Assembly (NCBI GenBank): GCA_030017955.1
Contig: JASEGR010000024.1
Location: forward strand, 1-37,912
DNA length: 37,912 bases
From: Candidatus Eisenbacteria bacterium
Lineage (GTDB): Bacteria; Eisenbacteria; RBG-16-71-46; JASEGR01
Direction: 5' to 3'
Under the pieces are notes generated by a model. It saw nothing but the letters and a program-made list of their open reading frames with translations. It ran no database searches and had not been told where the DNA came from. The translations under genes and the position numbers were made by a program. Shown here piece after piece: positions 4,062-37,300 of the stretch. Positions within the stretch are counted from its first letter, which is position 1. The number at the start of each line of letters is the position of its first letter.

Positions 4062-5151
4062 GCTGACGTTTTACAATGGGAGTTCGATCAAGTTCTCTCA
4101 CTGTGACGACGTAACGAAGTTCCAATCCGCAGAGTACGGGTTCATCGGGATCGACGAACTCACGCACTTCACTGAGTACGAGTGGCGGTACTTACTCTCA
4201 CGGCTTCGGTCCGTGAACCCGCAGGTCTTCCCCAATGCGTTCGCCGCGACGAACCCTGGGGGAATCGGCCATGCGTTCGTAAAACGCTTGTGGATTGACG
4301 AGCCCACGTCAGAGTTCGGGTATATTCCTGCACGGGTGTACGACAATCCGTACCTCATGGCGGCGGACCCGGCGTACATCCAGCGATTGGAGCAGCTGCC
4401 GGAGGATGAGCGCCGCGCACTTCTTGAGGGAGACTGGGATGTTTTCGCCGGGCAGGTGTTCAAGGAGTTTCGGCGAGAGGTTCACGTCACGGAACCGTTC
4501 ACGATTCCGAAGGATTGCAAGCGGTTCCGGGCCGTGGATTACGGCTACGCTGCGCCGTACTGCTGCCTCTGGTTTGCGGTTCTCCCAGCTGGTGATCTCG
4601 TCGTGTATCGCGAAGAGTACATCGCCGGGCTCACCGCAGAGCAGCAAGCGGAGCGCATGAAGGCGCTCTCGGTGGATGAGGACATTAGCTACACTGTCGT
4701 CGATCCGAGCGTATATCAAAAAACCGGACACCTCGGCGAGTCGATCTCGCAGATATACAACCGGTGCGGGATTCCAACGAAGGCGGGAGACAACGATCGT
4801 ATCTCCGGATGGAACCGCGTCCATGCGTTCCTCGCTCATGGCGCAGATCGTCCACCACGACTCCGTATTTTCTCAACGTGCCAGAACCTCATTCGAACTC
4901 TCCCGCAACTTATCTACGATGATCATCGAGTGGAGGACGTGAACTCGGATTGTGAGGACCACGCGGGGGATTCATTACGGTACGGACTCATGTCAAGACC
5001 TGATCCACTCCGTGGCATAGTTGTTGGAGTGACACCATCCTCATTCCCATTCCCAACGGTTCCTACATGGGATGCCGTGGGATCGGGCGTGAAGGCACCG
5101 AAGTTCCCATTTGATGAGGGAAAGAAGCAACGAGACTGGAAGCATACATAG
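3793..5151 (+). CDS. terL: Terminase large subunit (TerL)
   Basis: ATPase and nuclease motor that packages DNA into the prohead. The ATPase half has Walker A GGAAGGGKS (residues 28-36), Walker B FIGIDE (D121, E122) and the coupling motif ATNPGG (152-157). The RNase H-like nuclease half has acidic residues in AVDYG (D249), VVDPS (D304) and HAGDSLRYG (D393). The length, 452 aa, is normal. The start MSRQLSPYQPTEKQAVFHAH fits the usual TerL N-terminus, so the long overlap with terS comes from the terS side or is real. The start is C-ATG without a Shine-Dalgarno, so translation may depend on coupling to terS. Confidence 0.95.
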   Translation: MSRQLSPYQPTEKQAVFHAHPARYRLYGGAAGGGKSEAILWEAVAQAAESPGNRGLLLRKTYPELYETLIRRAKEKVPQGTATFHETRHELTFYNGSSIKFSHCDDVTKFQSAEYGFIGIDELTHFTEYEWRYLLSRLRSVNPQVFPNAFAATNPGGIGHAFVKRLWIDEPTSEFGYIPARVYDNPYLMAADPAYIQRLEQLPEDERRALLEGDWDVFAGQVFKEFRREVHVTEPFTIPKDCKRFRAVDYGYAAPYCCLWFAVLPAGDLVVYREEYIAGLTAEQQAERMKALSVDEDISYTVVDPSVYQKTGHLGESISQIYNRCGIPTKAGDNDRISGWNRVHAFLAHGADRPPRLRIFSTCQNLIRTLPQLIYDDHRVEDVNSDCEDHAGDSLRYGLMSRPDPLRGIVVGVTPSSFPFPTVPTWDAVGSGVKAPKFPFDEGKKQRDWKHT

Positions 5152-8417: not shown

Positions 8418-9482
8418 ATGCCAGCATTTACTGGATACGTCACGACCGTAACCAATGATCACTTTGTTCCTGTGGTTACGGATACCGTGCTCGGAGGCAA
8501 CGTCCTCACGGCGCGGTTGATTGCGAATGGGAAACGTTGGGTCGGAGAGACCCTCCGGTTCCCGGTCAAGACGGTACAGAACACATCCGGTGGGTCGTTC
8601 TTCGGCGGGGATACGCTGCTCACCACACAGGTGAACACGCGGCAGCTCCTCGGGTACGACCTCCGGCAGTGGTACCACGCAGTGGTTATTGCGAACGCGC
8701 AGCGTGCGGTGAACTCCGGGGACGCGGCGGTCATCAACCTCGTGAAGACGGAGATGGAGAGCGCTGCGCAGGACATGATCGACGATATCGGGGACATCGT
8801 GTACGGCAACGGGACAGGGAACGACAGTAAGAACTTCCTCGGGATGCAGGCGCTCATTGATGACGGGACGAACGTCGCCACCATCGGTGGGCTCGCCCGC
8901 GCCACGTTTACGACGCTTCAATCCACGCTCACGCCGACGATCGGAGTGCTCGAAATGAACGACCTTGCGGTGTCCTACGACGCGGCAACTGAAGGGAAAG
9001 ACCATCCGACGCTCATCGTGTGTCCGGAGGCGGTGTGGCGGTTCTTCGAAGGACTGCACCAGCCGACCATTCGTGCGAACTACGACGCCTATCAGGTCGT
9101 CGGAAGTCGTACGCCGAACGGACGATCGGTCCCGGCACACGCGCTCTCCGGTGAGCAGGGATTCTCCGCGCTCAACTTCCGTGGTGTCCCAGTCGTTGCG
9201 GACTCCAAGGCGACCGCGGGAACAATGTGGTTCATCAACGAGGACTACGTGAGCTGGTACGGACTTCCGCACCCGGACGCAGCGCCGAAGCCGTCCACGT
9301 CCTCGACGATTAGCGGCGTGTACTCGAAGTCACCGGCGCAGTCTGCGGGGATCGGGCTCTCGTGGAGTGGATGGAGACAACCCACGAATCAGGACGTTGT
9401 GGTTGGCTACTTCTTCCTCTACGGGAACTTGGTGACGAGGAACCCTGCACGGTGCTCAGTGATGACCGGGATTACCGGCTAA
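8418..9482 (+). CDS. Major capsid protein, HK97-fold type
   Basis: 354 residues. Consistent with the HK97 fold are a long helical spine region (AAVINLVKTEMESAAQDMIDD), a Gly-rich loop (VYGNGTGNDSKNFLG), a beta-rich A-domain with LIVCPEAVWRFF, the F-R-G-V-P-V-V-x-D segment (around residues 254-262) seen near the end of many capsid proteins, and the terminal GNLVTRNPARCSVMTGI. It follows the scaffold, as expected. The start PAFTGYVTTVTND is similar to other podovirus-type capsid proteins. Start T-ATG, no Shine-Dalgarno. Confidence 0.85.
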   Translation: MPAFTGYVTTVTNDHFVPVVTDTVLGGNVLTARLIANGKRWVGETLRFPVKTVQNTSGGSFFGGDTLLTTQVNTRQLLGYDLRQWYHAVVIANAQRAVNSGDAAVINLVKTEMESAAQDMIDDIGDIVYGNGTGNDSKNFLGMQALIDDGTNVATIGGLARATFTTLQSTLTPTIGVLEMNDLAVSYDAATEGKDHPTLIVCPEAVWRFFEGLHQPTIRANYDAYQVVGSRTPNGRSVPAHALSGEQGFSALNFRGVPVVADSKATAGTMWFINEDYVSWYGLPHPDAAPKPSTSSTISGVYSKSPAQSAGIGLSWSGWRQPTNQDVVVGYFFLYGNLVTRNPARCSVMTGITG

Positions 9483-16392: not shown

Positions 16393-16472
16393 TCCTTCAG
16401 GGGAGTACGTGACCTCTCATGGACAGTGCGGTGACGCCGTTCATGCCGATCCGCACTGTCCCGATCCTTCAG
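16391..16472 (+). repeat. Hairpin flanked by 10-base direct repeats
   Basis: GATCCTTCAG occurs at 16391-16400 and again at 16463-16472. Between the copies is an 11-base-pair hairpin, GGACAGTGCGG (16421-16431) with CCGCACTGTCC (16451-16461) and a 19-base loop. A 24-codon T-ATG ORF (16476-16550) follows and runs into the 3' end of the dead HNH gene. The arrangement may mark the edge of the HNH insertion or a transcription-control element. Confidence 0.4.
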
Positions 16473-20483: not shown

Positions 20484-22949
20484 ATGGCGAGATCTCCCTC
20501 CATCGACATCGCGCGGTTTCCGGTGATCCCGGATGTACCGGTCATCTTCCAGGGTGTGCCGACGACGGATGGTGTCGCAGATGCACCGAGTTCGTCGTTC
20601 TCGACGCTCTCGACTGGCGGAGCGTTTACGACGATCAACAATGTGGTCGGCGGTGACGGATCACTCCGGTCCTCGAACTTCGTCACGGGAACGACGGGAT
20701 GGCGTATTCGTGGGAACGGTGATGTGGAGTTCAATTCGGGAACATTCCGCGGCGCACTGATTGCCGGAGAGATTCATATTCCTGATCGAAGTATCACTAC
20801 GCGGAGTTTTCACGTGAACACGTCGGGAACCATGTGGATCGGTGCCACGGAGGCAGACTTCGCTCTGAACAACAACAATGCGGAGTTCTACGTTCTGAAC
20901 ACCGGTGCGATGCGTGTGGGGACGACGGCGGCGTCCTTCGACTGGAACGTCACAACGACCGATGCGCTCACCATTCGAGGGAACAACGCCGCTGGTCCCA
21001 TCATCACGACTATCAATGAGGCGACCTCCGGTATCCACATGGAGCAGTACAGCGCGAACAGCTCCGGGCCAAACGTGACATTCCGGAAATCACGGGGGAC
21101 ATTCGCGGCGCCCACCGCTGCATTGTTGAACGATACGCTCGGTTTCGTTGGTGCAAACGGGTACGGGGCAACCGGATTCCCTGCGTTCGGGACGTTCCAG
21201 GCGGCGATCACGTTCTCCGCAGCGGAGAACTGGACCGATGCGGCGCGGGGAACGTACATCGACTTTTCTACCACGACGGCCGGTGGAACCGCTCGACTTC
21301 TACGGATGCGCCTTGAAGCGAATGGGGACATCACGCTCTCTGACGGCACGGACATCACGCTGTCTGGGGAATCCGCTCGAACCGTAACGATGGCACGGTT
21401 TTCCATCGCAGGCGCTGGGAACAACCTCACCATCGGTTCTGGTGGGGCAGGATCGGGGACTGTGAACGGGAACGGGGGGACGCTGCTCTTGCAGAGCGGG
21501 ATCGCAACTGGATCTGGATCATCGAGTATCGAACTGTACACGGCAACTCCAGGCGTTGCTGGAGCCGCCGACAATACGCCGTCAGTGAAAATGTCCATTC
21601 TCGGGAATGGGAATACGACGTTCACCCAGGCGGTCGTCCTCACGGGTTCTCCGACCGCGTTCACCATCACTGGTGGTGCTCACACGACGCTCACCGCATC
21701 GACCGAGGCAACGGATATCAACCTCAACCTGGCACGGACGGTTCAGTTTGCGACCGGTGCGCTCGCCACGCAGCGCGCGGTGCGCGTCCAGGCGCCGACG
21801 TATGCATTCGTCGGGGCATCGACGCTCACCACCGCGATAACGTTTTCGATCACCGGTGCACCGATCGCGGGGACCAATGCGACACTGACGACGAGTATCG
21901 CAGCGAATATCGAACAGTTTGGCGGAAGCTCCGAGACGATCAATGGGATTCGGGTGAACCAGCCAGGGATCGCCAACGGATTCGGCGCGGTCACCACGAT
22001 CGCAGGACTTGATCTCCCGACCGCATCGATTGTGCTCGGGAATCAGACGGCGACCGCGACCGACGTGTTCGGTATTCGCCTCGGCATCCAGACGTATACA
22101 TCGACCACACTCGTGCGGACGGTGACGAACCTCGCGACGTTCTACGTCGAGGGGGCACCGGTGGCGAGCACGAACGTGACGGCCACGAATGGTCCGTACG
22201 CGGTGTTCATTGACGGTGGGGTGTCGAGGTTCGACGGGAACCTTCTTGTCGGTGCCACGGTATCGCCGGCCGGGATGACCGGTCCGGGGGTCGCCATCAA
22301 CCAGGCAGGTTCTGACAATGAGATTCTGACATTGAAATCTTCCGATGTTGCGCACGGGGTGACCACGCTCACCGAGACGGACACGTTTGGATTCTTCCAG
22401 AAAGCGAGTGCAACGAACGGTGGACTCTCCATTTCCGGGATCGGGAGTAGCACGACCGCAGGACTGAACGTCATCGGGATCCACGTCACCGCAGACACGA
22501 CGAAGGCGAACGGCTCCACTGGTGCGGTCCAGGTTATCGGACAGCTTCGGTCGGGGACGACGACCGGATCGCTCGGCGCGAATGCGAATATCATCGTATT
22601 CCGAGACGATGGGACCGTGCGGTTCATTCTCGATTCCGATGGCGATTCTCACCAGGATGTCGGAACTGCCTGGACGAACTTCGACGAGCAGAACGATGTG
22701 GAACTTCTCACTCAACTCTCTGTCCAAGTTTCTAGACAGCACGATCCGATTCGTCTCCACTTCGCGGAGTTTCTTGATCGGAATCGCCGACGGTTGGAAG
22801 AACTCAAGCTCGTGACCTTCAACGAAAACGGGCATCCCTTCGTCAACTGGAGCAAGCTGAACATGCTCCTTGTCGGAGCGGTTCGACAACTGTACGGACG
22901 AATCCAACGCGTGGAGGAGGCGCAGACGAACGCATTACTTCCCCAGTGA
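20484..22949 (+). CDS. Tail fibre protein with C-terminal helical domain
   Basis: 821 residues. The N-terminus includes GWRIRGNGDVEFNSGTFRGA, the classic start of fibre or central-tail attachment modules. The middle is Thr/Gly/Ser-rich beta-repeat sequence. Residues about 390-470 share the AHTTLTASTEATDINLNLAR ... LATQRAVRVQAPTY ... ITGAP block with the protein at 13696. The last 110 residues (DVELLTQLSVQVSRQ ... NWSKLNMLLVGAVRQLYGRI) are helical and recur at the ends of many metagenomic phage fibres. Likely receptor-binding or fibre shaft. Confidence 0.75.
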   Translation: MARSPSIDIARFPVIPDVPVIFQGVPTTDGVADAPSSSFSTLSTGGAFTTINNVVGGDGSLRSSNFVTGTTGWRIRGNGDVEFNSGTFRGALIAGEIHIPDRSITTRSFHVNTSGTMWIGATEADFALNNNNAEFYVLNTGAMRVGTTAASFDWNVTTTDALTIRGNNAAGPIITTINEATSGIHMEQYSANSSGPNVTFRKSRGTFAAPTAALLNDTLGFVGANGYGATGFPAFGTFQAAITFSAAENWTDAARGTYIDFSTTTAGGTARLLRMRLEANGDITLSDGTDITLSGESARTVTMARFSIAGAGNNLTIGSGGAGSGTVNGNGGTLLLQSGIATGSGSSSIELYTATPGVAGAADNTPSVKMSILGNGNTTFTQAVVLTGSPTAFTITGGAHTTLTASTEATDINLNLARTVQFATGALATQRAVRVQAPTYAFVGASTLTTAITFSITGAPIAGTNATLTTSIAANIEQFGGSSETINGIRVNQPGIANGFGAVTTIAGLDLPTASIVLGNQTATATDVFGIRLGIQTYTSTTLVRTVTNLATFYVEGAPVASTNVTATNGPYAVFIDGGVSRFDGNLLVGATVSPAGMTGPGVAINQAGSDNEILTLKSSDVAHGVTTLTETDTFGFFQKASATNGGLSISGIGSSTTAGLNVIGIHVTADTTKANGSTGAVQVIGQLRSGTTTGSLGANANIIVFRDDGTVRFILDSDGDSHQDVGTAWTNFDEQNDVELLTQLSVQVSRQHDPIRLHFAEFLDRNRRRLEELKLVTFNENGHPFVNWSKLNMLLVGAVRQLYGRIQRVEEAQTNALLPQ

Positions 22950-22966
22950 GGAATCGCAGTGATCGT

Positions 22967-25654
22967 ATGGCATTCTCTCTACAGGCAGCACGGGAGTTCC
23001 GAAACTTCAGCGGTGAGGACATCTCGACTCTCGGGTTCGAGCCGGTGGAGTTTGCTGTCGAGGGAAACCGTCTCGTCGTCCGCGGGGCATCGGGGCAAGA
23101 CCGATCATTCAACGTTGGGAATAACGTCCAAGCACAGTACGACGCGGAACGACTCGCGCGTGCATTTAGTGTTCGGATGGTGACGCCAAACTTCACCACG
23201 GATTTTGGAACTGGCGCGCTCTCTTTCTCTCAGCGGATCGGCGCAGCGGGACAGCAAGGGATTCCCGCGGAACAGCAAGCACTCGTCCGACAGCAACTGG
23301 GAATGCCGGCAGCGCCGCTTCCCTCGGTTCCTCCACAACTCCCACCGCCTCAACCGGCGCTTCCTCCTCCCGCGCCGCCGCCGGCACCCGCATCACCACC
23401 GCCAGCACCGCCAGCGCAACATCGCCAGGCAACGTTGTACGGTCCAGCGGGGGAAAGGGAGGTCGTTGATGTTGGATCTCCCCGTGCATCGGAACTCCAA
23501 TCTCAGGGATGGGGATTGACGAAGGGGAGCTACCGAGCGCCACCGACGTCAGCTCCAGCACCGCGTGCTCCGGCGCCGGCTTCCGTACCACCACGCGCAG
23601 CACCGACATCAGTTGCTGCGCCTCCTCCATCGCGTGCAGCGCCCGCACCAACGCCGGTTACCACGCCACCACCGGTTCCTCGCGTCACTCCCGCACCCGT
23701 ACCAGCAGCAGCTCCTCCGAGGGCACCGGCGCCACCGGTTGCTGGTCCACGGATCACACCGGAAGAAGCAACCCGTCAGGGGTTGACGCCGGTCTCGGAG
23801 CCGTCACAGCTTCGCGGTCTCCGCGAGGAGCAACTCGTGCGAACGACGAGTCCACAGATATTCCTCAGGCCGATGGCGCAGCCAGGAGGTTCCGTATTCG
23901 GTGCTCTACCATCCCCGAGTGTACCGCCACCTGTCCTTGGAGCAGCGCCTACTGTCAGTATCCCACAGACAGAAATTACTGCTGAACAGGGTCGTTTCCC
24001 AGGACTCCCGTCTGATGTGGTGATTGGGAATATCCTGGAGCGGCAGAAGCAAGTTTCCACAGGCGCAACACCGGCGGGGATTCCCGCGCTCGATGTTGGT
24101 GGCGCTGCGGGGACGACGATTCCGACGCTCGCACTTCCGCAACTCCTCGGCATCACGGAACCGGAGGCACGAGGTGCGGCACGGACGGTCAATGAGGCGA
24201 TCATACGGCGATTAGAGGGCGACGCAGCACCCGGAGGAGCACCGGGAACTCCTCCTGCGCCTGCACCGAGTCCTGCTGCTCCTGACGTCAATGCTGCCGC
24301 TGCGCCACCAGTGATTGGTGCGGATGATCCCGTGATGCGCGCGCTCACGGATCGGCTCAACAAGTTCCTGGACGCCGATCCGAATGCGGTGAGTCCACAA
24401 TCACAGGCAATTCTCAATGCCATCCAACGGAGACAGGATCAGCTCACCGCAGACCTCAGGAGTTCACGAGAGCAGTTGGTGAGTGCAATCCAGCAGCGCC
24501 CATCGGCACTCGAACAGTACCGGCAGTTCCAGACGGAGCAGGGGATTCCGCAACTTCAGGCGGAGCAGCGACGGCTCGGGGAACTCGGCGTAGCGACTGA
24601 GGGGCGGTTGGAAGAACTCCCGGAGGAGGTGAAGCAGCGGGCGTCACAATTCCTCGTCTCCGCACCGCAGCTCACGCGGCTCACCGCGCGGGAAGCGGAA
24701 CCCATTGCGAAGGTCCTCGCGCAGATCAACCGTGCGCGACAGCTCGGCGTGGAAGACCTCACACTCCGGCGTCAGTTCGCGGGAGAGCTCGCAAAGGCAG
24801 CCGGTGAGGATGCGGACCGCGCACTCCAGGCCATTGAGACGCGGCTCGGAGGCGTGGAACGTGAGGCGCAACTCACGCAGCCATTCTTCCAAGCTGAGAT
24901 TGGTGCTCGTAAGGATTTCCTGGAAGCGGCGCAGCGGCGGCTGGAGAACCAGCAGAAGACCGCGCTTGATCTCCTCAAGGAGCGGCGACAGGATGCGGAG
25001 AACAGGGAAAAGAACGCCCTGGAACGATTGAAGTTTGCGGAGTCATTGGAGGACAAGAAGGTTGCACGCCGTGAGGCGATGGAGGATCGGAAGCTCACGC
25101 GAGAACTCGCCGCGCAAGAGAAAGAGACACAGCGCGAGTTTCAATCTCGAGAGAATGCGCTCACGCGAGACATCAACAAGACAAACGCGGAGGCGCAGCG
25201 ACGAGATCGGGAGCAGGACAACGCGCGGCAACTCATGGTGACGTACTTGAGTACGAACAAGGCAATTCCGAAAGGGGTCGCAGAGAAGATCGCACCGATT
25301 CTCGGCATCCCGGTAAATGATCTCATCAACCTCTCGAAACAACGGCTCGGCGGTGGCGGCATCACGTTCACTACCGAAGAACGAAAGCTGCTTAACGGAC
25401 TTGGAAGTGTTGCCGATGTTGATGCATCTTTACTGCCGCAGACACTCCAAAACGTGCTCGTCAATGTTTTGACTAAGGATGAAGCGGAGCAATTTTTCCG
25501 TGCCTGGAAATCCGAACAGGATAGGCGTGGCCAATCCATAGCACCGGAACTATACATTCGGGAATGGGCGCAAGCGCGGGACCTAGAGGAGGCGAAAAGA
25601 AAGAAGGAGATCAGGGAGGAGGTGAAAGGCGGTGTTGCGAATCCGTACCGATGA
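22967..25654 (+). CDS. Internal virion (ejection) protein candidate, Pro-rich and coiled-coil
   Basis: 895 residues from T-ATG 22967. There is an N-terminal folded domain (about 1-105), then about 150 residues of Pro/Ala low complexity with SH3-ligand-like PxxP runs, a second Pro-rich stretch, and a long charged coiled coil (about residues 490-760, for example QRRQDQLTADLRSSREQL and ALTRDINKTNAEAQRRDR). The size, low Cys content and position before the LPD38-like protein fit internal core or ejection proteins of podoviruses. Exact function unknown. Confidence 0.55.
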   Translation: MAFSLQAAREFRNFSGEDISTLGFEPVEFAVEGNRLVVRGASGQDRSFNVGNNVQAQYDAERLARAFSVRMVTPNFTTDFGTGALSFSQRIGAAGQQGIPAEQQALVRQQLGMPAAPLPSVPPQLPPPQPALPPPAPPPAPASPPPAPPAQHRQATLYGPAGEREVVDVGSPRASELQSQGWGLTKGSYRAPPTSAPAPRAPAPASVPPRAAPTSVAAPPPSRAAPAPTPVTTPPPVPRVTPAPVPAAAPPRAPAPPVAGPRITPEEATRQGLTPVSEPSQLRGLREEQLVRTTSPQIFLRPMAQPGGSVFGALPSPSVPPPVLGAAPTVSIPQTEITAEQGRFPGLPSDVVIGNILERQKQVSTGATPAGIPALDVGGAAGTTIPTLALPQLLGITEPEARGAARTVNEAIIRRLEGDAAPGGAPGTPPAPAPSPAAPDVNAAAAPPVIGADDPVMRALTDRLNKFLDADPNAVSPQSQAILNAIQRRQDQLTADLRSSREQLVSAIQQRPSALEQYRQFQTEQGIPQLQAEQRRLGELGVATEGRLEELPEEVKQRASQFLVSAPQLTRLTAREAEPIAKVLAQINRARQLGVEDLTLRRQFAGELAKAAGEDADRALQAIETRLGGVEREAQLTQPFFQAEIGARKDFLEAAQRRLENQQKTALDLLKERRQDAENREKNALERLKFAESLEDKKVARREAMEDRKLTRELAAQEKETQREFQSRENALTRDINKTNAEAQRRDREQDNARQLMVTYLSTNKAIPKGVAEKIAPILGIPVNDLINLSKQRLGGGGITFTTEERKLLNGLGSVADVDASLLPQTLQNVLVNVLTKDEAEQFFRAWKSEQDRRGQSIAPELYIREWAQARDLEEAKRKKEIREEVKGGVANPYR

Positions 25655-25660
25655 TCCGCT

Positions 25661-28291
25661 ATGGGGTTATTCGATCGTGTTCAGGGAGCACTCCGGGAAC
25701 TTCGGCCGATGCTCCCGGAAATTCCAGGAGTATCAGTATCTTCACTGGGGCAATTCCGTGAGCGTCTTCGTCGGCGCGCGGAAGAACAGCAAGTGGCGCG
25801 TCGCCGGTTTAGTGGCCCGGAGGAGACAATTGGTGGGTTTGCCGTTAATATTGCACGAGCGCCATTCCGTGCTGCAGCAACCATTGGAACGGCGATCGGG
25901 AGGAAGCCGGCATTCACCCCTGGGGAGGGTATCCCGTCGCTGCTCGGTCGCATTGAACGCGCGCTCCTCGGTCCAGAGACGATTGGCTTCGCTGAATCGC
26001 AGCGTCGGTTTGAAGAAACAACGAAGGAACTCGGGCTTGCTCCAAAAACCGCGCGGGCGCTATCCTTCCCGGCGGTCATTGCAGGCCTTGGATTTGATGT
26101 CTCAGGATTCGGTGGTACAGAGAAAAGGATTACCGAACAACTCGTGAAGGCGAAAACGGTAGATGCGGTCCTCGGGGTTCTCAGAAGAACGAAAATTCCA
26201 TCAACATTGAGTAGACGATTTGCTCAGGAGTTCGCGCAGGCAGAGACACCGGAAGCAGTACGCGAGACAACCGAACGGATGCTCACGACTGCATTGCCAG
26301 AAGAGAAGCTGACAATCGCCATTCGTGAAGCTGGACCGGTTCGGCGAGAGCAGGAGCTCCTGTACACACAGGAGCGCGCTCGGCGTGCCGCGCGTGTTGC
26401 AGAGATGGGGAAGCAGGTCCCCGGTGAGCGAGGATTCTTTGCTCAACTCGGTCAACTTAGGGGAGAGCTTCCGAAGAAACAATTTGCAGCAGTACGTGAT
26501 AAGTTCACGCAAGCCGATGTGGATGCCATGTATCAGAAGATCGAGAATGCTCCACTGCTCCCATTCGAGAAAATCTCAACAAAAACTGGGCTTCAGAAAC
26601 TCTTTGATGGCGTCGTTCCCGCAGAGGGCGAGCTCAACTCGCTCGGTGAAATCTTTTCAAAAGACCTCATGGATGCCGTGAAAACTAACGTGCCGTTGAG
26701 CACTCGGATCATAGCAACTATTGGTGAGGTGCTCAACATTCCACGATCACTCATGGCATCGCTTGATTTCTCCGCTCCGCTCAAGCAGGGCGTCTTCCTC
26801 ATCGGGAGGCCAAAGCAATTCCTCCCGGCATTTACGGAGATGTTCAAGTTTGCGTTCTCAGAGAAAGCATACCAGGGGCTCCAGCAGTCCATTCGGGCGC
26901 GATCCACGTACCGCGTGATGGAGGACGCTGGTCTTGCGCTCACTGATCTCGGGAAAACGCTCACGAAGCGCGAGGAAGCCATCATGTCGAGTCTGCCGGA
27001 GCGTATCCCGGTCATTGGTCGGATCGTCCGAGGATCAAACCGTTCGTTTTCTGGGTTTCTCAATAAACTCCGCGCCGATACATTCGATGCGATCATCGGG
27101 GACGCAACGAAGGGAGGGAGACAACTTACTGAGCGAGAACTCCGTGATGTTGGGAAGTTCGTCAATGCGGCAACCGGACGTGGGAGTGCCGGTGCGCTCG
27201 AACGCGCCGCGCCAGTCCTCAATGCCATCTTCTTCTCCCCGAAGCTCCTCTTCTCGCGTCTCAACCTGATGAACCCGTTTTTCTACACGTCGCTGACTCC
27301 TCCCGCTCGAAAGGAGGCGCTCAAATCACTCTTCTCGTTCTCCGCGATAGCCGGGACCGTCCTCGGATTGATGAAGCTCGGTGGCGCAGAGGTAGGAACA
27401 GATCCACGAAGCGCGGACTTCGGGAAAGCGAAGTTTGGAGATACACGGTACGACATCCTCGGTGGATTCCAACAACCGCTCCGTACGGTGGGGCAGCTCA
27501 TCTCCGGTGAAGTGGTGAGCTCGACGACCGGACGTACTATCACGCTCGGAGAGGGATACAAACCGTTGACGCGGTTCGATATTGCTCAGCGGTTCTTTGA
27601 GAATAAGGAATCACCGATCGCGTCACTCATCACGTCATGGCTTCGCGGGAAAACATTTACCGGCGAGGACTTCGACTTCCCAACGGAGGTGATATCACGA
27701 TTCATTCCGATAGTCATGCAAGATATATACGATCTATCCCAGGACCCAGATGCGAAAAGCATTATGGGTGGACTTCCGGCAATTTTCGGCGTCGGTGTTC
27801 AGACGTACGGCACGCAGGAACTTGTGGAGGGGAAGAGCAAGATCGGTGAACCAACGCTCCAGGTGCGCCCGGTACAAGAACTCTCGAGGCGTATTCGAGA
27901 ACTTGTACTCGGACAGCTCCCACTCGGGACCTCAAAACGGTTCAGCGTAGAAGCATATCTCGATCAGCTCGACCAACTCCCGAAGCAGGAAGCTGCAGAC
28001 ATCTTCGACAAAATCATTGCGGGAAACCCAGAACTTGCGAAGGAAATCGAGCGGATCAAACGAGAAGAGGACGAGGGGATTACGGTTCACGACCGCGATC
28101 TCAAGACGAAGGGCGTTGCGTCGGGCGATCGCGCTATGGCGATCAAAAAGGAGCTTGATGCGTTCAAGACGGACGAGGAACGCGCGAAGCTGTGGGATGA
28201 CTATACGAAGAAGCGAATTATTACAGAGGAGGTTGCTCGGCAGCTCAGTATTCTTATAAAGGGGAATAGGCATGTACTCACCACTCGCTGA
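25661..28291 (+). CDS. Large internal virion protein with LPD38-like domain
   Basis: 876 residues. Residues about 360-690 match the pattern of large polyvalent protein-associated domain 38: R-G-S-N-R-S-F-S-G-F-L-N-K-L-R-A-D-T-F-D, then V-N-A-A-T-G-R-G-S, FFSPKLLFSRLNLMNP, T-D-P-R-S-A-D-F-G-K, D-I-L-G-G-F-Q-Q-P-L-R, and S-S-T-T-G-R. In podoviruses such proteins lie at the end of the structural block and are thought to be ejected with the DNA. A hydrophobic stretch near residue 560 (SFSAIAGTVLGLMKLGG) could be a membrane segment. The start is T-ATG six bases after the preceding stop. Confidence 0.75.
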   Translation: MGLFDRVQGALRELRPMLPEIPGVSVSSLGQFRERLRRRAEEQQVARRRFSGPEETIGGFAVNIARAPFRAAATIGTAIGRKPAFTPGEGIPSLLGRIERALLGPETIGFAESQRRFEETTKELGLAPKTARALSFPAVIAGLGFDVSGFGGTEKRITEQLVKAKTVDAVLGVLRRTKIPSTLSRRFAQEFAQAETPEAVRETTERMLTTALPEEKLTIAIREAGPVRREQELLYTQERARRAARVAEMGKQVPGERGFFAQLGQLRGELPKKQFAAVRDKFTQADVDAMYQKIENAPLLPFEKISTKTGLQKLFDGVVPAEGELNSLGEIFSKDLMDAVKTNVPLSTRIIATIGEVLNIPRSLMASLDFSAPLKQGVFLIGRPKQFLPAFTEMFKFAFSEKAYQGLQQSIRARSTYRVMEDAGLALTDLGKTLTKREEAIMSSLPERIPVIGRIVRGSNRSFSGFLNKLRADTFDAIIGDATKGGRQLTERELRDVGKFVNAATGRGSAGALERAAPVLNAIFFSPKLLFSRLNLMNPFFYTSLTPPARKEALKSLFSFSAIAGTVLGLMKLGGAEVGTDPRSADFGKAKFGDTRYDILGGFQQPLRTVGQLISGEVVSSTTGRTITLGEGYKPLTRFDIAQRFFENKESPIASLITSWLRGKTFTGEDFDFPTEVISRFIPIVMQDIYDLSQDPDAKSIMGGLPAIFGVGVQTYGTQELVEGKSKIGEPTLQVRPVQELSRRIRELVLGQLPLGTSKRFSVEAYLDQLDQLPKQEAADIFDKIIAGNPELAKEIERIKREEDEGITVHDRDLKTKGVASGDRAMAIKKELDAFKTDEERAKLWDDYTKKRIITEEVARQLSILIKGNRHVLTTR

Positions 28292-28567: not shown

Positions 28568-28804
28568 ATGTCGACGAAATGCAAATATGCGGAGTGTAAC
28601 GCAGAGGGTCCGTTTCGTGAATATGTAGGATTTTTCCCACAAGAAATCATCACCCGTCTCCACGAAGACGATCGAAGACTTCCCAAGTACGGATTCCACT
28701 ACGGGATCGACTGCACCATCTGTGGACGGTGGCAACGATGGCTACCGCAGGAGGATGCACGTATGCTTGGGGTAAAATTTTACCGCAATCCCACACTCCT
28801 GTGA
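28568..28804 (+). CDS. Small zinc-finger-like protein ahead of the primase-helicase
   Basis: 78 residues from T-ATG 28568. Cysteines in CKYAEC (residues 5-10) and CTICGRW (about 51-57) plus histidines suggest a zinc-binding fold. The stop (TGA 28802-28804) overlaps the GTG of the primase-helicase in GTGA form, so the two are translated as a pair. A role in replication, such as a loader or regulator, is inferred only from this coupling. The start lies directly below the structured leader. Confidence 0.65.
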   Translation: MSTKCKYAECNAEGPFREYVGFFPQEIITRLHEDDRRLPKYGFHYGIDCTICGRWQRWLPQEDARMLGVKFYRNPTLL

Positions 28805-30879
28805 CCCTTCTCGAGAACGCGATTCGATACCTCAAGATGGGTCTTCCGGTATTCCCAGTGGGATGGGATAAGAATCATAAGAAACGAAAAACTCCACTCG
28901 TTCCGTGGAGGGGATACGCCACAGCACTTCCGAGTGAGGACGACATCCGTCACTGGTGGACGAGATGGCCCGATGCGGGGATCGGGCTCGCGGTCGGGAA
29001 GCTCACTGGATTTCTCGTCATAGATGCAGAGCACGATGCGGATATGTCGCTCTTTCGTCTTCTCGACATTGAGACCCCGCGCGTACGAACAGGTGGTGGC
29101 GGATGGCATTTCTATTTCAAGAATGAGACAACTGGGAATAGTGTCGGAAAAATTGCGCCTCGGTACGACGTGAAGACCGAGGGGGGGTATGTGCTCCTTC
29201 CACCGAGTCCACACGACTCCGGTGGAACGTATGCGTGGGATATCCCTATCGGTACCGTTACTCCTGCTTCATTGCCTGAGACGATCAGAGCGAAGATCAT
29301 CGGAACGCACGAGTCGAAAATCCCCGAAATCCTCAGTAGAAATACCCCGCAAGGATCACGGAATAACACTGCCACGAGCATCGCAGGGATGCTTCTCGGG
29401 GAACACCGCATGGACCGCTGGGAAAGCGTCGTCTGGCCGCTCCTGCAAGCGTGGAATACCACGCATGCAACACCACCTCTTGGGAATGATGAGCTTAAAA
29501 CGGTGTACGAATCCATTGCAAAGACCGAGAAGACGCGGCGGGCGCGAGAAGGCGTCATCGAGGGGAATACGCCAATGATCACCGAGGGAACGTACGCCCC
29601 AATGATTGTTGAAGACAGAGACACCGTCGTTGTACAAATCCCCGTTGAAGACGGTCTCGTGTTCTTGCGTTTTTCAGACGTGGAGTTCATGAAAAACCAT
29701 ACCATTGACGCGGTGCTCTCCGTGGAGCTCATCACTGCCGGGGGAACACCACGAGCGTTTGAGGGGAGAATCAATGTACTCTCACTTTCCGCACGTGAAG
29801 GGTTTGCCCGTGCACTCACAAAAACATTCGGGAGGAATGTCGCATGGGACCTCATCCTCTCTCAAGCTGCATCAGCGCTCAAAAAACACATTGAGCATAA
29901 GGATACGTCGTGTTGGTTCGAAGATGCTCCAAAGGAAGCGGTGGGGTATCTCCTAGAGCCTTTCATCGTTCTCGGTGCGCCGAATCTTTTTTTTGGACGT
30001 GGGGGATCAGGCAAAACATTCATTACGCTCCGAATTGCGTACGCGCTCGCAACGGGTACCCCGTTTCTCGGAATGACGCCGGCGGCTCGAGTACGAACGC
30101 TCTTTGTGGACTATGAATCAACCAGTGGGACGCTCGCGGACCGTCTCGAGCTGATTCGCGGTGCTCCTAATCTCGCCGATACACCATTCGACGACGGACT
30201 TCGTGCGCTCCGATACTACTCCCCGAGCGGTATCCCCATCGCGGACTGTCTGCCTGCGCTCAAGAGAATTATTGCGAAGCACGACATCGGCCTGATCATC
30301 GTGGACTCCGCTGCGCTTGCCTGTGGTGGAGAACCAGAGAAAGCAGAAATAGCCATCCGGTACTTCAACGCACTCGCTTCCCTCAAGACAACGTCTCTCA
30401 CCATCGCCCATGAGACAAAACAGGAGAATCACGCGTACGCCTTTGGATCGGTTTTCTGGGCAAACTCTCCTAGGAATATTTGGAATATCGCCTGTACACA
30501 AGAGCAGGAAGATCGAGTTCTTCATAGCGGGCTCCACCATCGGAAGGCAAACGATGACCGCAGGAGAGCGTCATTCGGATGTCGTATCTTTTTCGGGGAT
30601 GGTTTCGTGGACATGGGCTACGAAAACCCAGCCATGAACTTCCCGAAAGACGCATCGCTCGTCCAACGGATTCGTTTGGCACTTTCGGATGGACCGAAAG
30701 ATCTTGCGGGTATCGCGACGGTGATTTCGGACGCAAAAAACGCCTCATTGAAGAACGCGCTAACCAAAGGAAGTATGAGGAATCTGTGGGGTAATGTTGA
30801 CGGTGTCTGGCGGCTTTTTTCAACAACCGTCAGTCACCAGGGTGGTGACTCACTTGACACGGAGTCACCAGGGTGGTGA
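28801..30879 (+). CDS. Fused primase-polymerase and RecA-like helicase (RepA-type replication protein)
   Basis: 692 residues. The N-terminal PrimPol domain has YLKMGLPVFPVGW, the catalytic FLVIDAEHD (D75, E77), GGGWHFYFK, and DVKTEGGYVLLPPSPHDSGG. It is followed by a PriCT-like helical region (SRNNTATSIAGMLLGEH). The helicase part is an AAA_25-type RecA fold: Walker A GRGGSGKT (399-406) and Walker B IIVD (D502). A small winged-helix-like end (LVQRIRLALSDGPKDLAGIA) follows. It would prime and unwind DNA at the origin. The GTG at 28801 was chosen because it gives the usual MTLLENAIRYLKMGLPVFP start and a GTGA overlap; ATG 28729 would add an unrelated extension. The last codons run into the origin-like repeats. 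Confidence 0.85.
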   Translation: MTLLENAIRYLKMGLPVFPVGWDKNHKKRKTPLVPWRGYATALPSEDDIRHWWTRWPDAGIGLAVGKLTGFLVIDAEHDADMSLFRLLDIETPRVRTGGGGWHFYFKNETTGNSVGKIAPRYDVKTEGGYVLLPPSPHDSGGTYAWDIPIGTVTPASLPETIRAKIIGTHESKIPEILSRNTPQGSRNNTATSIAGMLLGEHRMDRWESVVWPLLQAWNTTHATPPLGNDELKTVYESIAKTEKTRRAREGVIEGNTPMITEGTYAPMIVEDRDTVVVQIPVEDGLVFLRFSDVEFMKNHTIDAVLSVELITAGGTPRAFEGRINVLSLSAREGFARALTKTFGRNVAWDLILSQAASALKKHIEHKDTSCWFEDAPKEAVGYLLEPFIVLGAPNLFFGRGGSGKTFITLRIAYALATGTPFLGMTPAARVRTLFVDYESTSGTLADRLELIRGAPNLADTPFDDGLRALRYYSPSGIPIADCLPALKRIIAKHDIGLIIVDSAALACGGEPEKAEIAIRYFNALASLKTTSLTIAHETKQENHAYAFGSVFWANSPRNIWNIACTQEQEDRVLHSGLHHRKANDDRRRASFGCRIFFGDGFVDMGYENPAMNFPKDASLVQRIRLALSDGPKDLAGIATVISDAKNASLKNALTKGSMRNLWGNVDGVWRLFSTTVSHQGGDSLDTESPGW

Positions 30880-31021
30880 CTGGGTGGTGACTCATCCGAA
30901 GATTTAGCTATAATTAGCCGAGAATCGAGTCACCACCCTGGTGACTCGATTCTCGTCCGGTCATACCTCACCTATAGAGAGTCACCACTAGTGACTCTCT
31001 ATAGGGTGGTGACTGGTGACT
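30832..31021 (+). repeat. Palindromic repeat array, probable replication origin
   Basis: The palindromic 19-mer AGTCACCAGGGTGGTGACT occurs at 30832-30850 and 30863-30881, and inverted at 30928-30946. The heptamer GGTGACT/AGTCACC appears ten times exactly and once with one change in 190 bases. The third copy is embedded in a perfect inverted repeat with 17-base arms (CGAGAATCGAGTCACCA at 30919-30935 and its complement at 30939-30955, loop CCC). A second inverted repeat has 15-base arms (30971-30985, 30991-31005, loop CACTA). A+T-rich sequence TTTAGCTATAATTAG lies between. Iterons beside a replication initiator are classic origin structure; an operator array is the alternative. Confidence 0.7.
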
Positions 31022-31161: not shown

Positions 31162-31371
31162 ATGCCGGAAAAGAAAGCACCGCAGGTCCAAACGGCGGAA
31201 CTTACCATCGCTGATCTCGTGGCTCGTGGGGCATCACCGGAGGAGATTCTCAGGTTTGCTCGGGCGACCGTCACCTCTCCAGGAGGCCGCGCCGTTGCCA
31301 AGAAGAAAGGCCATATGGCCAAGCTCGGGCGACTCAGTGGGAAGGCAAGGAGGAAGAAAGCCGCTCAATAA
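31162..31371 (+). CDS. Small basic protein, 69 aa
   Basis: T-ATG start at 31162 next to its own promoter. The N-terminal half is acidic to neutral (IADLVARGASPEEILRFARA). The C-terminal half is strongly basic with GRLSGKARRKKAAQ, similar in style to small DNA- or RNA-binding phage proteins. The TAA stop sits in the loop of the terminator hairpin. Function unknown; early expression is likely from its position. Confidence 0.65.
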   Translation: MPEKKAPQVQTAELTIADLVARGASPEEILRFARATVTSPGGRAVAKKKGHMAKLGRLSGKARRKKAAQ

Positions 31372-31758: not shown

Positions 31759-32205
31759 ATGCAGATCATCCTCACCATCGGAGGCATCATCGGAATAGTC
31801 GTCATGATGATTGCGCTCGCGCAACCGAGGATACACGAGATTTCTTTCGTAGAACTCAATGGCATCTCCCGTCGTACATTCGAAAGAGAGATTGATCTCC
31901 AGCTCGAGCGGATGTGGCAACGGATACGGGTGGTTCAGGCAACCGTTACCGCGTACTCCTCAACGACCGATCAAACAGACCGTACACCGTTTGAAATGGC
32001 GAATGGGCAGCTCGTCCACGATGGTGCGATCGCATGTCCTCGCCGGTATCCGTTCGGGACAACGGTGTACATTGGAGCGAAACGGTACACATGCACCGAT
32101 CGCATGAGCCGTCGGTACGATGATCGTTTCGACATTTGGTTCCCGACTCGTTCCGCAGCGCTCGTATGGGGGAAGCAGGAACGGACGGTTTTTATCGCGC
32201 AATGA
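31759..32205 (+). CDS. Membrane-anchored 3D-domain (double-psi barrel) protein
   Basis: 148 residues. Residues 3-21 form an N-terminal transmembrane or signal-anchor segment (IILTIGGIIGIVVMMIALA). After a short coil, VTAYSSTTDQTDRTPFEMAN (63-82), YPFGTTVYI (97-105), CTDRMSRRYDDRFDIWF (112-128) and SAALVWG give the 3D-domain pattern with D114, D122 and D125. In bacteria this fold is found in MltA-type lytic transglycosylases and RlpA-like cell-wall proteins. It probably acts in the periplasm on peptidoglycan. Its place in the early region, far from the lysis genes, is notable. Confidence 0.7.
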   Translation: MQIILTIGGIIGIVVMMIALAQPRIHEISFVELNGISRRTFEREIDLQLERMWQRIRVVQATVTAYSSTTDQTDRTPFEMANGQLVHDGAIACPRRYPFGTTVYIGAKRYTCTDRMSRRYDDRFDIWFPTRSAALVWGKQERTVFIAQ

Positions 32206-32209
32206 TCGT

Positions 32210-32677
32210 ATGGCGGAAAATCTCCCAACGGATATACAGGAACGACTCGATGCGTACATTGAGCGCGTCAAAAAGATTCCATGGTTCCAACCCAAAAAAG
32301 GCTGGAAGAAATCGGAAGCGACAAAACTGGTAAAGATCACGCTTCGTGCATTCGGCGTCGATGCGAAGATTGAGTATCGAAAACTAGAATCGCCTGATGA
32401 TTGGGCTGGTGCGTGGACTGCGACGTGGGATGCGGCGCGGGATGCGGCGTGGACTGCGGCGCGGGATGCGGCGCAAGATGCGGCGTGGGGTGCGGCGTGG
32501 GGTGCGGCGCGGGATGCGGCGTTGGGTTCGCAAGAAATTATCGTGTCTGATCTTACCGAGTTTCGGAGTAAGTACAAAAACGGAGCATTCTTGCTCCTCA
32601 TTCCTCTTTGGGAGATGGGACTCTATCCGATCGGCATATGCGACGGGAAATTTGTGATATATGTCCCGAAAGCATGA
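32210..32677 (+). CDS. Tetrapeptide-repeat protein (DAAR/DAAW), 155 aa
   Basis: T-ATG at 32210, four bases after the previous stop. The N-terminal helical domain (1-60) contains ERLDAYIERVKKIPWFQPKK and SEATKLVKITLRAFGVDAKI. Residues 70-105 are a run of 12-base repeats, GATGCGGCG(C/T)GG and variants, giving DAAR, DAAW, TAAR, DAAQ, GAAW. A short beta-rich C-terminus follows (YKNGAFLLLIPLWEMGLYPI). The layout (short helical domain, AA-rich repeat, beta-rich tail) echoes the DUF6745-like gene at the contig ends. Function unknown. Confidence 0.7.
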   Translation: MAENLPTDIQERLDAYIERVKKIPWFQPKKGWKKSEATKLVKITLRAFGVDAKIEYRKLESPDDWAGAWTATWDAARDAAWTAARDAAQDAAWGAAWGAARDAALGSQEIIVSDLTEFRSKYKNGAFLLLIPLWEMGLYPIGICDGKFVIYVPKA

Positions 32678-34766: not shown

Positions 34767-36344
34767 ATGCACTACACGACGCATTTCAGTACGAAGGAAA
34801 CGCCGCAGAGTGAACGAATCCCCGGATCATCACAGGTGGAGAACTCCACAGGTGGGTTCTCTTGGGCGGTGGATGATTGGATGCGACTCGATCGGTTCCT
34901 CGTTCTCGGTTCTGAAGGTGGAAGTTACTACGCGAGCGAACGAAAACTCACCGTGGAGAATGCCGAAGCGGTCATGCGCTGCATCGTACAAAATGGGGTT
35001 CGCGTGGTCCAAAGAATCGTTGAGGTAAGTGACTCTGGGAGAGCACCAAAGAATGATCCGGCACTCTTCGCACTCGCCATGGTCGCAGGAACGGGAAATC
35101 CCGAGACGCGAAAGGCTGCGCTTGCGGCATTACCGAAAGTTGCGCGTATCGGGACGCACCTGTTCACCTTTGCAGAGTATGTGCAAGCGTTCCGTGGCTG
35201 GGGTCGTGGACTCCGAACCGCAATCGGAAACTGGTACACGCAGCAGACCGTCGATGATCTTGCGTATCAGCTCGTGAAATACCGACAGCGGAACGGATGG
35301 TCGCACCGCGATCTCCTCCGGCTCGCGCATCCGAAGAAACTCGGTGCGCATGATCTCCTCTTCCAGTGGGTGACGCAAGGAAAGCGCGGTGACGGCATCC
35401 ACGACCTCGTGGAACAGTTCGCGCGTCTCCAAGAGACGAAGACGGAACACGATGCGGTGGCAATCATCGAGGCGGACAAACGCATTACGTGGGAAATGGT
35501 GCCAACGAAACTTCTTGGTAGTGCGAAAATGTGGAACGCATTGCTTCCGCATATGCCGCTCCACGCGATGATTCGGAATCTTGGGCGTATGAGCGCGAAT
35601 GGATTATTGAAACCAATGAGTGTATCAGCGAAACTCGTTGGAGAGAAACTCGCAAATAGAGATCAAATCGTGAAATCTCGATTGCATCCCATCGCAGTAC
35701 TCACCGCGCTCCACACGTACAAGAATGGTCGCGGGAATCTCGGGAAGCTCGAATGGGAGCCCGTAGAATCCGTCTGCGATGCGCTCGATGATGCGTTCTA
35801 CGCTGCATTCGGAAACGTAGAGCCATCTGGGAAGCGGATGCTCCTCGCGCTCGATGTCTCTGGTTCGATGTCAGGTGGAGCAGTTGCGGGTGTAAAAGGT
35901 CTCACGCCGCGTATCGCATCCGTAGCAATGGCAATGGTGACTGCGAGAACAGAACCGCAGTATCATGTCATGGCGTTCGCCAACGGTTTCGTCCCATTGA
36001 CAATCACGAAGAAGGAAACGCTTGATGCGGTGATGCGGAAGGCCGATGCGCTTTCGATGGATGGAACCGATTGCGCGCTCCCAATGCTCTGGGCGCTCAA
36101 AGAGAAGATTTCTGTAGATACATTTGTGGTGTATACCGACAGTGAAACGTGGGCGGGAAATATACATCCGAGTCAGGCGCTTGCTCAGTATCGGAACGCG
36201 ATGCAGATTCCCGCGAAGCTCGTCGTGGTAGGGATGGTATCTAATGGGTTTACCGTCGCAGACCCAAATGATCGTGGGATGCTTGATGTCGTAGGATTTG
36301 ATATCGCAGCACCGAACCTCATCACGAATTTTGCCAAGGAGTGA
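34767..36344 (+). CDS. rsr: Ro60/Rsr (TROVE-domain) RNA-binding protein
   Basis: 525 residues, the usual size for bacterial Rsr. The TROVE N-terminus is highly typical: THFSTKETPQSERIPGSSQV, then GFSWAVDDWMRLDRFLVLGS, E-G-G-S-Y-Y-A-S-E, and APKNDPALFALAMVAG. HEAT-like helices follow, forming the ring that holds misfolded RNA ends and binds Y RNA. The C-terminal von Willebrand A domain has the MIDAS motif D363-V-S-G-S-M-S (LLALDVSGSMSGG) and later GTDCALP and YTDSETW. In bacteria Rsr works with Y RNA to bring PNPase to structured RNAs or to aid rRNA maturation. The candidate Y RNA begins at the stop codon. T-ATG start. Confidence 0.95.
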   Translation: MHYTTHFSTKETPQSERIPGSSQVENSTGGFSWAVDDWMRLDRFLVLGSEGGSYYASERKLTVENAEAVMRCIVQNGVRVVQRIVEVSDSGRAPKNDPALFALAMVAGTGNPETRKAALAALPKVARIGTHLFTFAEYVQAFRGWGRGLRTAIGNWYTQQTVDDLAYQLVKYRQRNGWSHRDLLRLAHPKKLGAHDLLFQWVTQGKRGDGIHDLVEQFARLQETKTEHDAVAIIEADKRITWEMVPTKLLGSAKMWNALLPHMPLHAMIRNLGRMSANGLLKPMSVSAKLVGEKLANRDQIVKSRLHPIAVLTALHTYKNGRGNLGKLEWEPVESVCDALDDAFYAAFGNVEPSGKRMLLALDVSGSMSGGAVAGVKGLTPRIASVAMAMVTARTEPQYHVMAFANGFVPLTITKKETLDAVMRKADALSMDGTDCALPMLWALKEKISVDTFVVYTDSETWAGNIHPSQALAQYRNAMQIPAKLVVVGMVSNGFTVADPNDRGMLDVVGFDIAAPNLITNFAKE

Positions 36345-36413
36345 ATATCCGTGGGTCGGAGTACAAGGGTTATCATTGTAGTAATCCCTCGTGCAAAGTT
36401 CATCCACGGTTAT
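36345..36413 (+). ncRNA. Y RNA candidate, cognate to the Ro60 protein
   Basis: Directly after the rsr stop. Lower stem: CCGTGGGT (36349-36356) with ATCCACGG (36402-36409). C36357 is bulged. GGA (36358-36360) pairs with TTC (36399-36401). AAAG (36395-36398) is unpaired on the 3' side. GTAC (36361-36364) pairs with GTGC (36391-36394), then A-C mismatch, AGGG (36366-36369) with CCCT (36386-36389), and a 16-base loop starting TTATCA. The bulged C, the 3'-side A-rich internal loop and GGGTTATCA are arranged as in the Ro-binding stem of animal Y RNAs as I remember them (GGTCCGA...GTAGTGGGTTAT; CTGCTAAATTTGACTGG). No clear promoter, so it may be processed from the rsr transcript. Confidence 0.75.
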
Positions 36414-36422
36414 TGGAAAAAA

Positions 36423-36484
36423 TCTTCGGGCCGGCGTGTGTTGGTTACCTGTTTATACCCGATGCACGATTTTTCGTCCGAAGA
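36423..36484 (+). ncRNA. Second RNA hairpin domain beside the Y RNA
   Basis: TCTTCGG (36423-36429) pairs perfectly with CCGAAGA (36478-36484). Inside are ACGA/TCGT (36466-36469, 36474-36477, loop TTTT) and an alternative TCGGG/CCCGA pairing (36426-36430, 36458-36462). Bacterial Y RNAs often carry a second, sometimes tRNA-like, module next to the Ro-binding stem, and this could be it. I could not identify clear tRNA-like T- or D-loop sequences. Confidence 0.4.
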
Positions 36485-36662
36485 CTGATTCGGTAATGAA
36501 GAAGGGAAAACGGGGAGAGAGCGAGCATTATTGAGCGGTATATGGCGAAGTACTAGACGTACTATGTAAGGGAATCGTGAGACACGAATGAATGCCGCGG
36601 ATGAGAGGACGAGCAACAGATTGAACATGCTCACCTAGTTCGCTGAAAGACGTGCAAGGATT
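36485..36662 (+). other. Non-coding stretch after the Y RNA region
   Basis: No convincing gene in 178 bases. It contains a small hairpin AGTAC-TAGAC-GTACT (36549-36563) and two T-ATG triplets that reach stops within four codons. With the RNA elements before it, the interval 36345-36662 is the longest gene-free stretch of the genome. Confidence 0.5.
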
Positions 36663-36836
36663 GTGACCTACATCGCTATCGCCAAAGCGCTCCGTCAGAA
36701 GATGCACGGGTGGAAGTACTGCTCGCCGTACACGTACAGCTGCTATCAGTGCGCGATGTGGTATGCGTTGAGTGTGTTAGAACACGCGGCGGATTTGGAG
36801 AAGTTCACAGCAGAACGGAAGAGGAAAACAAGATGA
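36663..36836 (+). CDS. Small Cys/Tyr-rich protein, 57 aa
   Basis: GTG at 36663 (preceded by T), TGA at 36834-36836. Product: VTYIAIAKALRQKMHGWKYC, then SPYTYSCYQCAMWYALSVLE and a charged helical tail. Three cysteines and aromatic residues (C-x6-C-x2-C) suggest a small structured or metal-binding protein. The frame is closed just upstream by TAG. Coding appearance is good for its size; function unknown. Confidence 0.5.
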   Translation: MTYIAIAKALRQKMHGWKYCSPYTYSCYQCAMWYALSVLEHAADLEKFTAERKRKTR

Positions 36837-36849
36837 AGAGGGAATGAAT

Positions 36850-36915
36850 ATGCTCACGAAGGAACAGCTCAATGAGATTCGGGAGCGCTCCGTAAAATCA
36901 TGTAAACAGAGTTGA
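36850..36915 (+). pseudogene. Truncated start of a common small phage protein
   Basis: T-ATG at 36850 gives MLTKEQLNEIRERSVKSCKQ then S and a stop. A start of the form M-L-T-x-E-Q-L-x-E-I-R-x-R is common at the N-terminus of longer phage proteins, so this may be a gene cut short by mutation. The 34 bases that follow contain nothing obvious. It may also be a genuine 21-residue peptide. Confidence 0.35.
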
Positions 36916-36949
36916 GACTCACCATTTCAATGAATAAGTACCGAGCGAT

Positions 36950-37300
36950 ATGAATAACGAGCGCATAAAGAATAAATACGGAAACATACGTACGGAAATA
37001 GACGGCAAGGTTTTCTCGAGTAAACGGGAAGCGGAAGTCTACCGTGAACTTCAGTCCTGCCGGCGAGCGAGAAGGAACGATCAACGAGTCGTAGAAATAC
37101 AGGTTCACCCCAAATATCCGTTCATCATCAACGAGAACAACATCGGGATTTACACGGCGGATTTTTGGGTGAAGTACGCGGATGGGCACGAGGAAGTTAT
37201 CGATGTGAAGAGTCCGGTTACCGCAAAGCTCAAGGATTTCCGGCGCACCATGAAGCTCATGCGCGCGTTCTACGGAATTGAGGTGCAGGTACGACAGTAA
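36950..37300 (+). CDS. DUF1064 endonuclease (PD-(D/E)XK type)
   Basis: 116 residues from T-ATG. The family order is complete: KYGNIRTEIDGKVFSSKREA (E27 of S-K-R-E-A-E), a hydrophobic strand EIQVHPKYPFII, Y-T-A-D-F (D71), and E-E-V-I-D-V-K (D85-x-K87) with K-D-F-R-R following. DUF1064 proteins are small phage nucleases of the restriction-enzyme fold, probably acting on branched or recombination DNA. All catalytic residues are present, so it should be active. Confidence 0.85.
   Translation: MNNERIKNKYGNIRTEIDGKVFSSKREAEVYRELQSCRRARRNDQRVVEIQVHPKYPFIINENNIGIYTADFWVKYADGHEEVIDVKSPVTAKLKDFRRTMKLMRAFYGIEVQVRQ

Follow-up and report, generated by a model that had tools for sequence, protein, structure and literature searches.

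A dense array of inverted half-sites lies across the end of a primase-helicase gene on a 37,912-bp contig (C24), and the question raised by this locus is which process of the encoded element the array serves. The analyses presented below make it likely that the array is the iteron-type replication origin of a phage. The main evidence for this reading is comparative: arrays with lineage-specific repeat words often lie directly 3' of primase-helicase genes in other phages, prophages and plasmids. The whole contig, referred to here as the window, is part of a 3.1-Mb metagenome-assembled genome (MAG), the sole genome of its family in the collection used.

Identity of the Contig

The window encodes small and large terminase subunits, a P22/SU10-type portal, a major head protein, an M23 peptidase and an SU10-type adaptor, and from these structural and packaging genes it was identified as a podovirus-type tailed phage. 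An Ala/Gly-rich 9-bp tandem repeat in an open frame is present at both contig ends (1-807 and 37720-37912). The frame continues past the contig on either side, which points to a circular genome that was opened within the repeat. Megablast of the 20-37.9 kb region against phages gave no match, and no confirmed relative was found by scanning viral contigs with the primase, major head protein, Ro60 and portal sequences, or genome contigs with the primase. The array therefore has no support from direct conservation, which counts against the origin reading.

Other observations concern the remaining gene content. The best annotated match of the major head protein (8418-9482) was from the Saccharibacteria (TM7) phage DolZOral124_53_65, with 35% identity, and the host assignment that follows from the bin may therefore be worth re-examining. 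A Ro60-like gene at 34767-36344 contains TROVE and Ro60 vWA domains, and the region behind it (36300-37000) gave no match to Y-RNA-like families. Positions 20484-28291 encode three proteins in a row (821, 902, and 876 amino acids) that had no match in PHROG or in Pfam; they are possibly ejection or tail proteins. In addition, a 12/36-bp tandem repeat at 32411-32522, within the ORF at 32120-32677, encodes an Ala/Trp/Asp-rich stretch.

Anatomy of the Repeat Array

The gene preceding the array (28729-30879, plus strand), whose product is the proposed initiator, encodes Prim-Pol (PF09250), PriCT_1 (PF08708) and AAA_25 (PF13481) domains, all above the Pfam cut-off. Its TGA stop codon (30877-30879) sits within the second copy of a 19-mer, AGTCACCAGGGTGGTGACT, and 48 nt of the array lie inside the gene, covering its final 15 codons together with the stop, in agreement with the original prediction that the array begins within the final codons. 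Neither a helix-turn-helix nor another DNA-binding domain was detected at the C-terminus of this protein, a point against the origin reading, and the protein is therefore treated as a putative binder of the repeats. The AlphaFold model of its C-terminal 205 amino acids had a pLDDT of 34 and was uninformative, and PDB sequence searches returned nothing useful.

The 19-mer is located at 30832-30850 and 30863-30881 on the plus strand and at 30928-30946 on the minus strand, with no further exact copy in the 3.1-Mb MAG; the type was likewise not found in the other 46 genomes of the phylum. Its half-site, AGTCACCA, has 10 exact copies between 30832 and 31021 and one elsewhere in the window, where 0.78 copies were expected in dinucleotide shuffles and 11 were reached by no shuffle. 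An eleventh half-site of the array, with one mismatch, is found at 30989. These counts reproduce those given in the original prediction, namely three 19-mers (two direct and one inverted) and ten exact half-sites in 190 bases. The 19-mer had also been described as a palindrome, but its GGG centre is not self-complementary, which makes it an 8+3+8 interrupted palindrome.

The half-sites fall into two sets that have an identical order of orientations (+ - + - -). The left set (30832-30892) consists of the first two 19-mers and an extra half-site 11 bp further on (30885-30892), while the right set (30928-31021) also contains the mismatched copy. They are separated by a gap of 35 bp (30893-30927) with 60% A+T, which is a candidate melting region; its best 30-bp A+T fraction was 0.63, a modest excess over random gaps of the contig (p = 0.04). 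Two perfect inverted repeats were confirmed, one at 30919-30955 with 17-bp arms and a 3-nt centre, which contains the third 19-mer, and the other at 30971-31005 with 15-bp arms and a 5-nt centre. No other perfect hairpin in the 37.9 kb is as long as these two stems, the third in rank measuring 12 bp, and the folding z-scores of the array were -11.8 as DNA and -10.5 as RNA. The array also ranks first in the window for the count of a single 8-mer, although the tandem repeats at 1-136 and 32411-32522, both in ORFs, score about as high when all repeated 8-mers per 200 bp are summed. The next likely gene downstream (31162-31371, plus strand) encodes 69 amino acids with no family match.

A GC-skew analysis had been proposed as a check of the origin. 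The detrended circular skew reaches its minimum at 30541, some 300 bp away from the array, and its maximum at 16433; the position of the minimum agrees with the array, though the signal is weak (p = 0.04), its low is broad and it is confounded by the one-strand gene layout.

Repeats at Other Primase-Helicase Gene Ends

Distant homologues of the primase-helicase were fetched from 47 genomes of the phylum by protein similarity, blind to repeats. Arrays were present at the stop codon in several of them, and the repeat word differed from case to case, examples being GCACAATTC, ACATCCCC, GTGAAGGAT, TGACGGAT, ACGCAAC, and ATCCCGTAA. In a wider survey, the repeat density at the gene end was significant (p ≤ 0.05) in 13 of 24 loci; the corresponding Fisher value of 4e-11 is overstated, since it counts related loci and includes three (L031, L035, and L060) that were first noticed for their arrays. 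Six surveyed homologues (L106, L112, L116, L118, L120, and L122) had no array at the gene end and speak against the origin reading. In the original prediction, relatives that keep the gene but lack any repeats were named as refuting evidence; these six are of that kind, and several distant homologues carry arrays with other words.

An out-of-sample set of annotated phages and plasmids was then considered, in which loci were selected solely by protein similarity. Here, 6 of 8 primase-helicase gene ends reached p ≤ 0.05, compared to 1 of 31 control gene ends at the same loci; the six were those of LunBun, Emery, phiCDKH02, and the Secundilactobacillus, Spartinivicinus, and Alicyclobacillus plasmids. 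Stand-alone PrimPol genes showed an array signal in two of five cases. The helicase part of the protein varied among array loci (AAA_25, D5/DUF5906, DUF3987, and VapE), the VapE proteins having no detectable homology to the window protein, and the array therefore follows the position of the gene and not one helicase family.

Opposed repeat sets were observed in L111 (---/+++) and L114 (----/+++), with a gap that is strongly A+T-rich in the former and not significantly so in the latter. Two array-bearing helicases have recognizable C-terminal DNA-binding domains, HTH_23 in L123 (E = 1.8e-7) and Pox_D5 in L121 (E = 2.5e-12), the latter with a weaker RFX-like match in addition. The arrays of the relatives do not evidently share the long perfect hairpins. 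Of the original proposal of an iteron origin with extrudable hairpins beside a replication gene, the iteron origin is well supported by comparison, and the extrusion of the hairpins is hypothetical. A core word shared across the relatives' arrays, GTKRC, was considered and dropped, since it was enriched in 8 of 21, had been picked post hoc and was absent from many. As a separate observation, three terminase relatives (L037 at about 4150, L041 at about 1950, and L046 at about 950) have an array that falls within an open frame coding for about 280-300 amino acids, which resembles origins of the lambda-O type.

Other Readings of the Array

Control of transcription was considered as another function, in which a repressor or activator bound to the palindromes would act on a promoter-like site and the downstream genes. 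Such a site, GTGACT-16-TATAAT, is present on the plus strand at 30887-30914, with its -35-like hexamer inside a half-site. In the 59.6-kb phage contig IMGVR_UViG_3300017540_000002 (L022, L025, L028, and L029), the same type of palindrome, AGTCACCANNNTGGTGACT, occurs at about 10 dispersed intergenic places, several directly upstream of start codons, and these dispersed copies are possibly operators; no tyrosine integrase was detected on that contig. In the region of the array, promoter-like sites were not above chance (5 found and 8.1 expected in shuffles), and the one at 30887-30914 may be a chance occurrence. Moreover, ten sites packed into 190 bp with none dispersed are unlike an operator system, and an operator would leave the link to primase-helicase gene ends unexplained. 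An operator is thus an unlikely function for the array, although such a role could coexist with an origin.

The word of the half-sites raises a further alternative, namely that they serve as arm-type sites for a tyrosine integrase, in an attP or in its relic after loss of the integrase gene. The similarity to arm-type sites is a point against the origin reading. In six loci, a tyrosine integrase gene lies no more than about 1 kb from the 11-bp-spaced pair TGGTGACTNNNTGGTGACT, and the integrase of one of them, L024 (PF00589), is preceded by AGTCACCAGCGTGGTGACTGCGTGGTGACT, which is identical in 28 of 30 bases to positions 30863-30892 of the window. The annotated Int sites of lambda attP (NC_001416) contain GGTCACTA and TAGTGACT and so have a similar word. 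Unlike lambda attP, the contig has no recognized core site and no integrase, which was absent both from a Pfam search of the MAG and from a loose profile search of all contig ORFs (best E = 1). About 27 of the 33 stretches with the pair have no integrase nearby, some of these stretches being fragments, and an attP would not explain the equivalent arrays with unrelated words at primase-helicase relatives. An attP or its relic is therefore very unlikely. Because no integrase was found here and the words at equivalent arrays are unrelated, we take the shared word as convergence or re-use. In its own right, the occurrence of TGGTGACT pairs with 11-bp spacing beside tyrosine integrases (L024 at 4426-4800, L076 at 9074, L104 at 2119, L094 at 4867, L091 at 2208, and L077 at 2710) looks as if many integrases in unrelated viral contigs shared a lambda-like arm-site word.

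It is extremely unlikely that the array acts as RNA, for instance as a processing or attenuation element in an untranslated 3' or 5' region: the fold is very stable (z = -10.5), but no terminator-like site was called at the array, no Rfam match was obtained, and the exact repetition of an 8-mer, partly with 11-bp spacing, is not needed for stems and suits DNA binding. A T7-like promoter, GACTCTCTATAGGG, at 30993 was dropped, as the motif matched just twice, both times within the same inverted repeat, and the ORFs scanned gave no phage RNA polymerase. A packaging site is improbable, because the array is distant from the terminase genes.

Comparison With Known Origins and Proposed Mechanism

The preferred reading, that of a replication origin, has close precedents. 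The origins of phage-inducible chromosomal islands (PICIs) directly follow the gene for replication initiation on its 3' side. In them, an A+T-rich region is bordered by two iteron sets, and a plasmid can be replicated from the pri-rep-ori segment (PMC6092414). In addition, the Rep protein of SaPIs and the SCCmec helicase Cch2 recognize downstream repeats by their C-terminal domain (PMC7581432). The window shares with the PICI/SaPI systems (SaPIbov1, SaPI1, EfCIV583, and EcCICFT073; PMC6092414, PMC7581432) the position of the predicted iteron origin 3' of a primase/helicase initiator gene, the two iteron sets around an A+T-richer gap and a lineage-specific word. It differs from them in its helicase, which is AAA_25 instead of DUF927 or D5, in the palindromic 8+3+8 arrangement of its half-sites, in the same order of orientations in both sets and in the long perfect hairpins. 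PICIs are satellites, whereas this phage itself encodes a terminase, a portal and a major head protein and is therefore not classed as a PICI.

The SCCmec Cch2 operon with its putative origin (PMC7581432) is also alike in having a helicase gene followed by repeats that are bound by its C-terminal domain, but the repeats are three 5-nt direct iterons, the helicase is of another family and the primase-polymerase is separate. The 302-bp origin of Streptococcus thermophilus phage Sfi21 (PMC6356513) is likewise a non-coding phage origin in the replication module, and in SWK1 the densest repeats of the stretch analysed come after the second primase gene; this type differs in its split primase genes, its A+T-rich array and another word.

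Based on these comparisons, an initiator would bind the AGTCACCA half-sites in both sets. The initiator is most likely the primase-helicase encoded directly upstream, acting perhaps via its C-terminal segment. Binding would lead to melting of the A+T-richer 35-bp gap, which would be followed by helicase loading and by priming through the PrimPol domain, and extension would probably be carried out by the host replisome. A more specific version, in which a PrimPol-helicase of the AAA_25 (RecA/RepA) type acts as its own initiator by binding palindromic paired iterons while the long perfect arms aid melting, is offered tentatively, as a possibility that is somewhat doubtful.

The original prediction held the layout to be more typical of plasmids than of a phage like this one, which proved wrong, since it is common in phages and phage satellites. 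It has also been described as peculiar to phage-inducible islands, and our results suggest that it is commoner in phages than that statement allows. The array is most likely a further example of an already known design, in which each lineage has its own word. The locus provides a concrete origin that can be tested, in a phage for which the collections searched contain no close relatives. The analysis also points to a simple rule, by which the likely origin of many phages, prophages and plasmids can be recognized from a non-coding array at the 3' end of a primase-helicase gene. This rule spans quite different helicases, and the survey yields many candidate pairs of initiator and iteron for binding studies.
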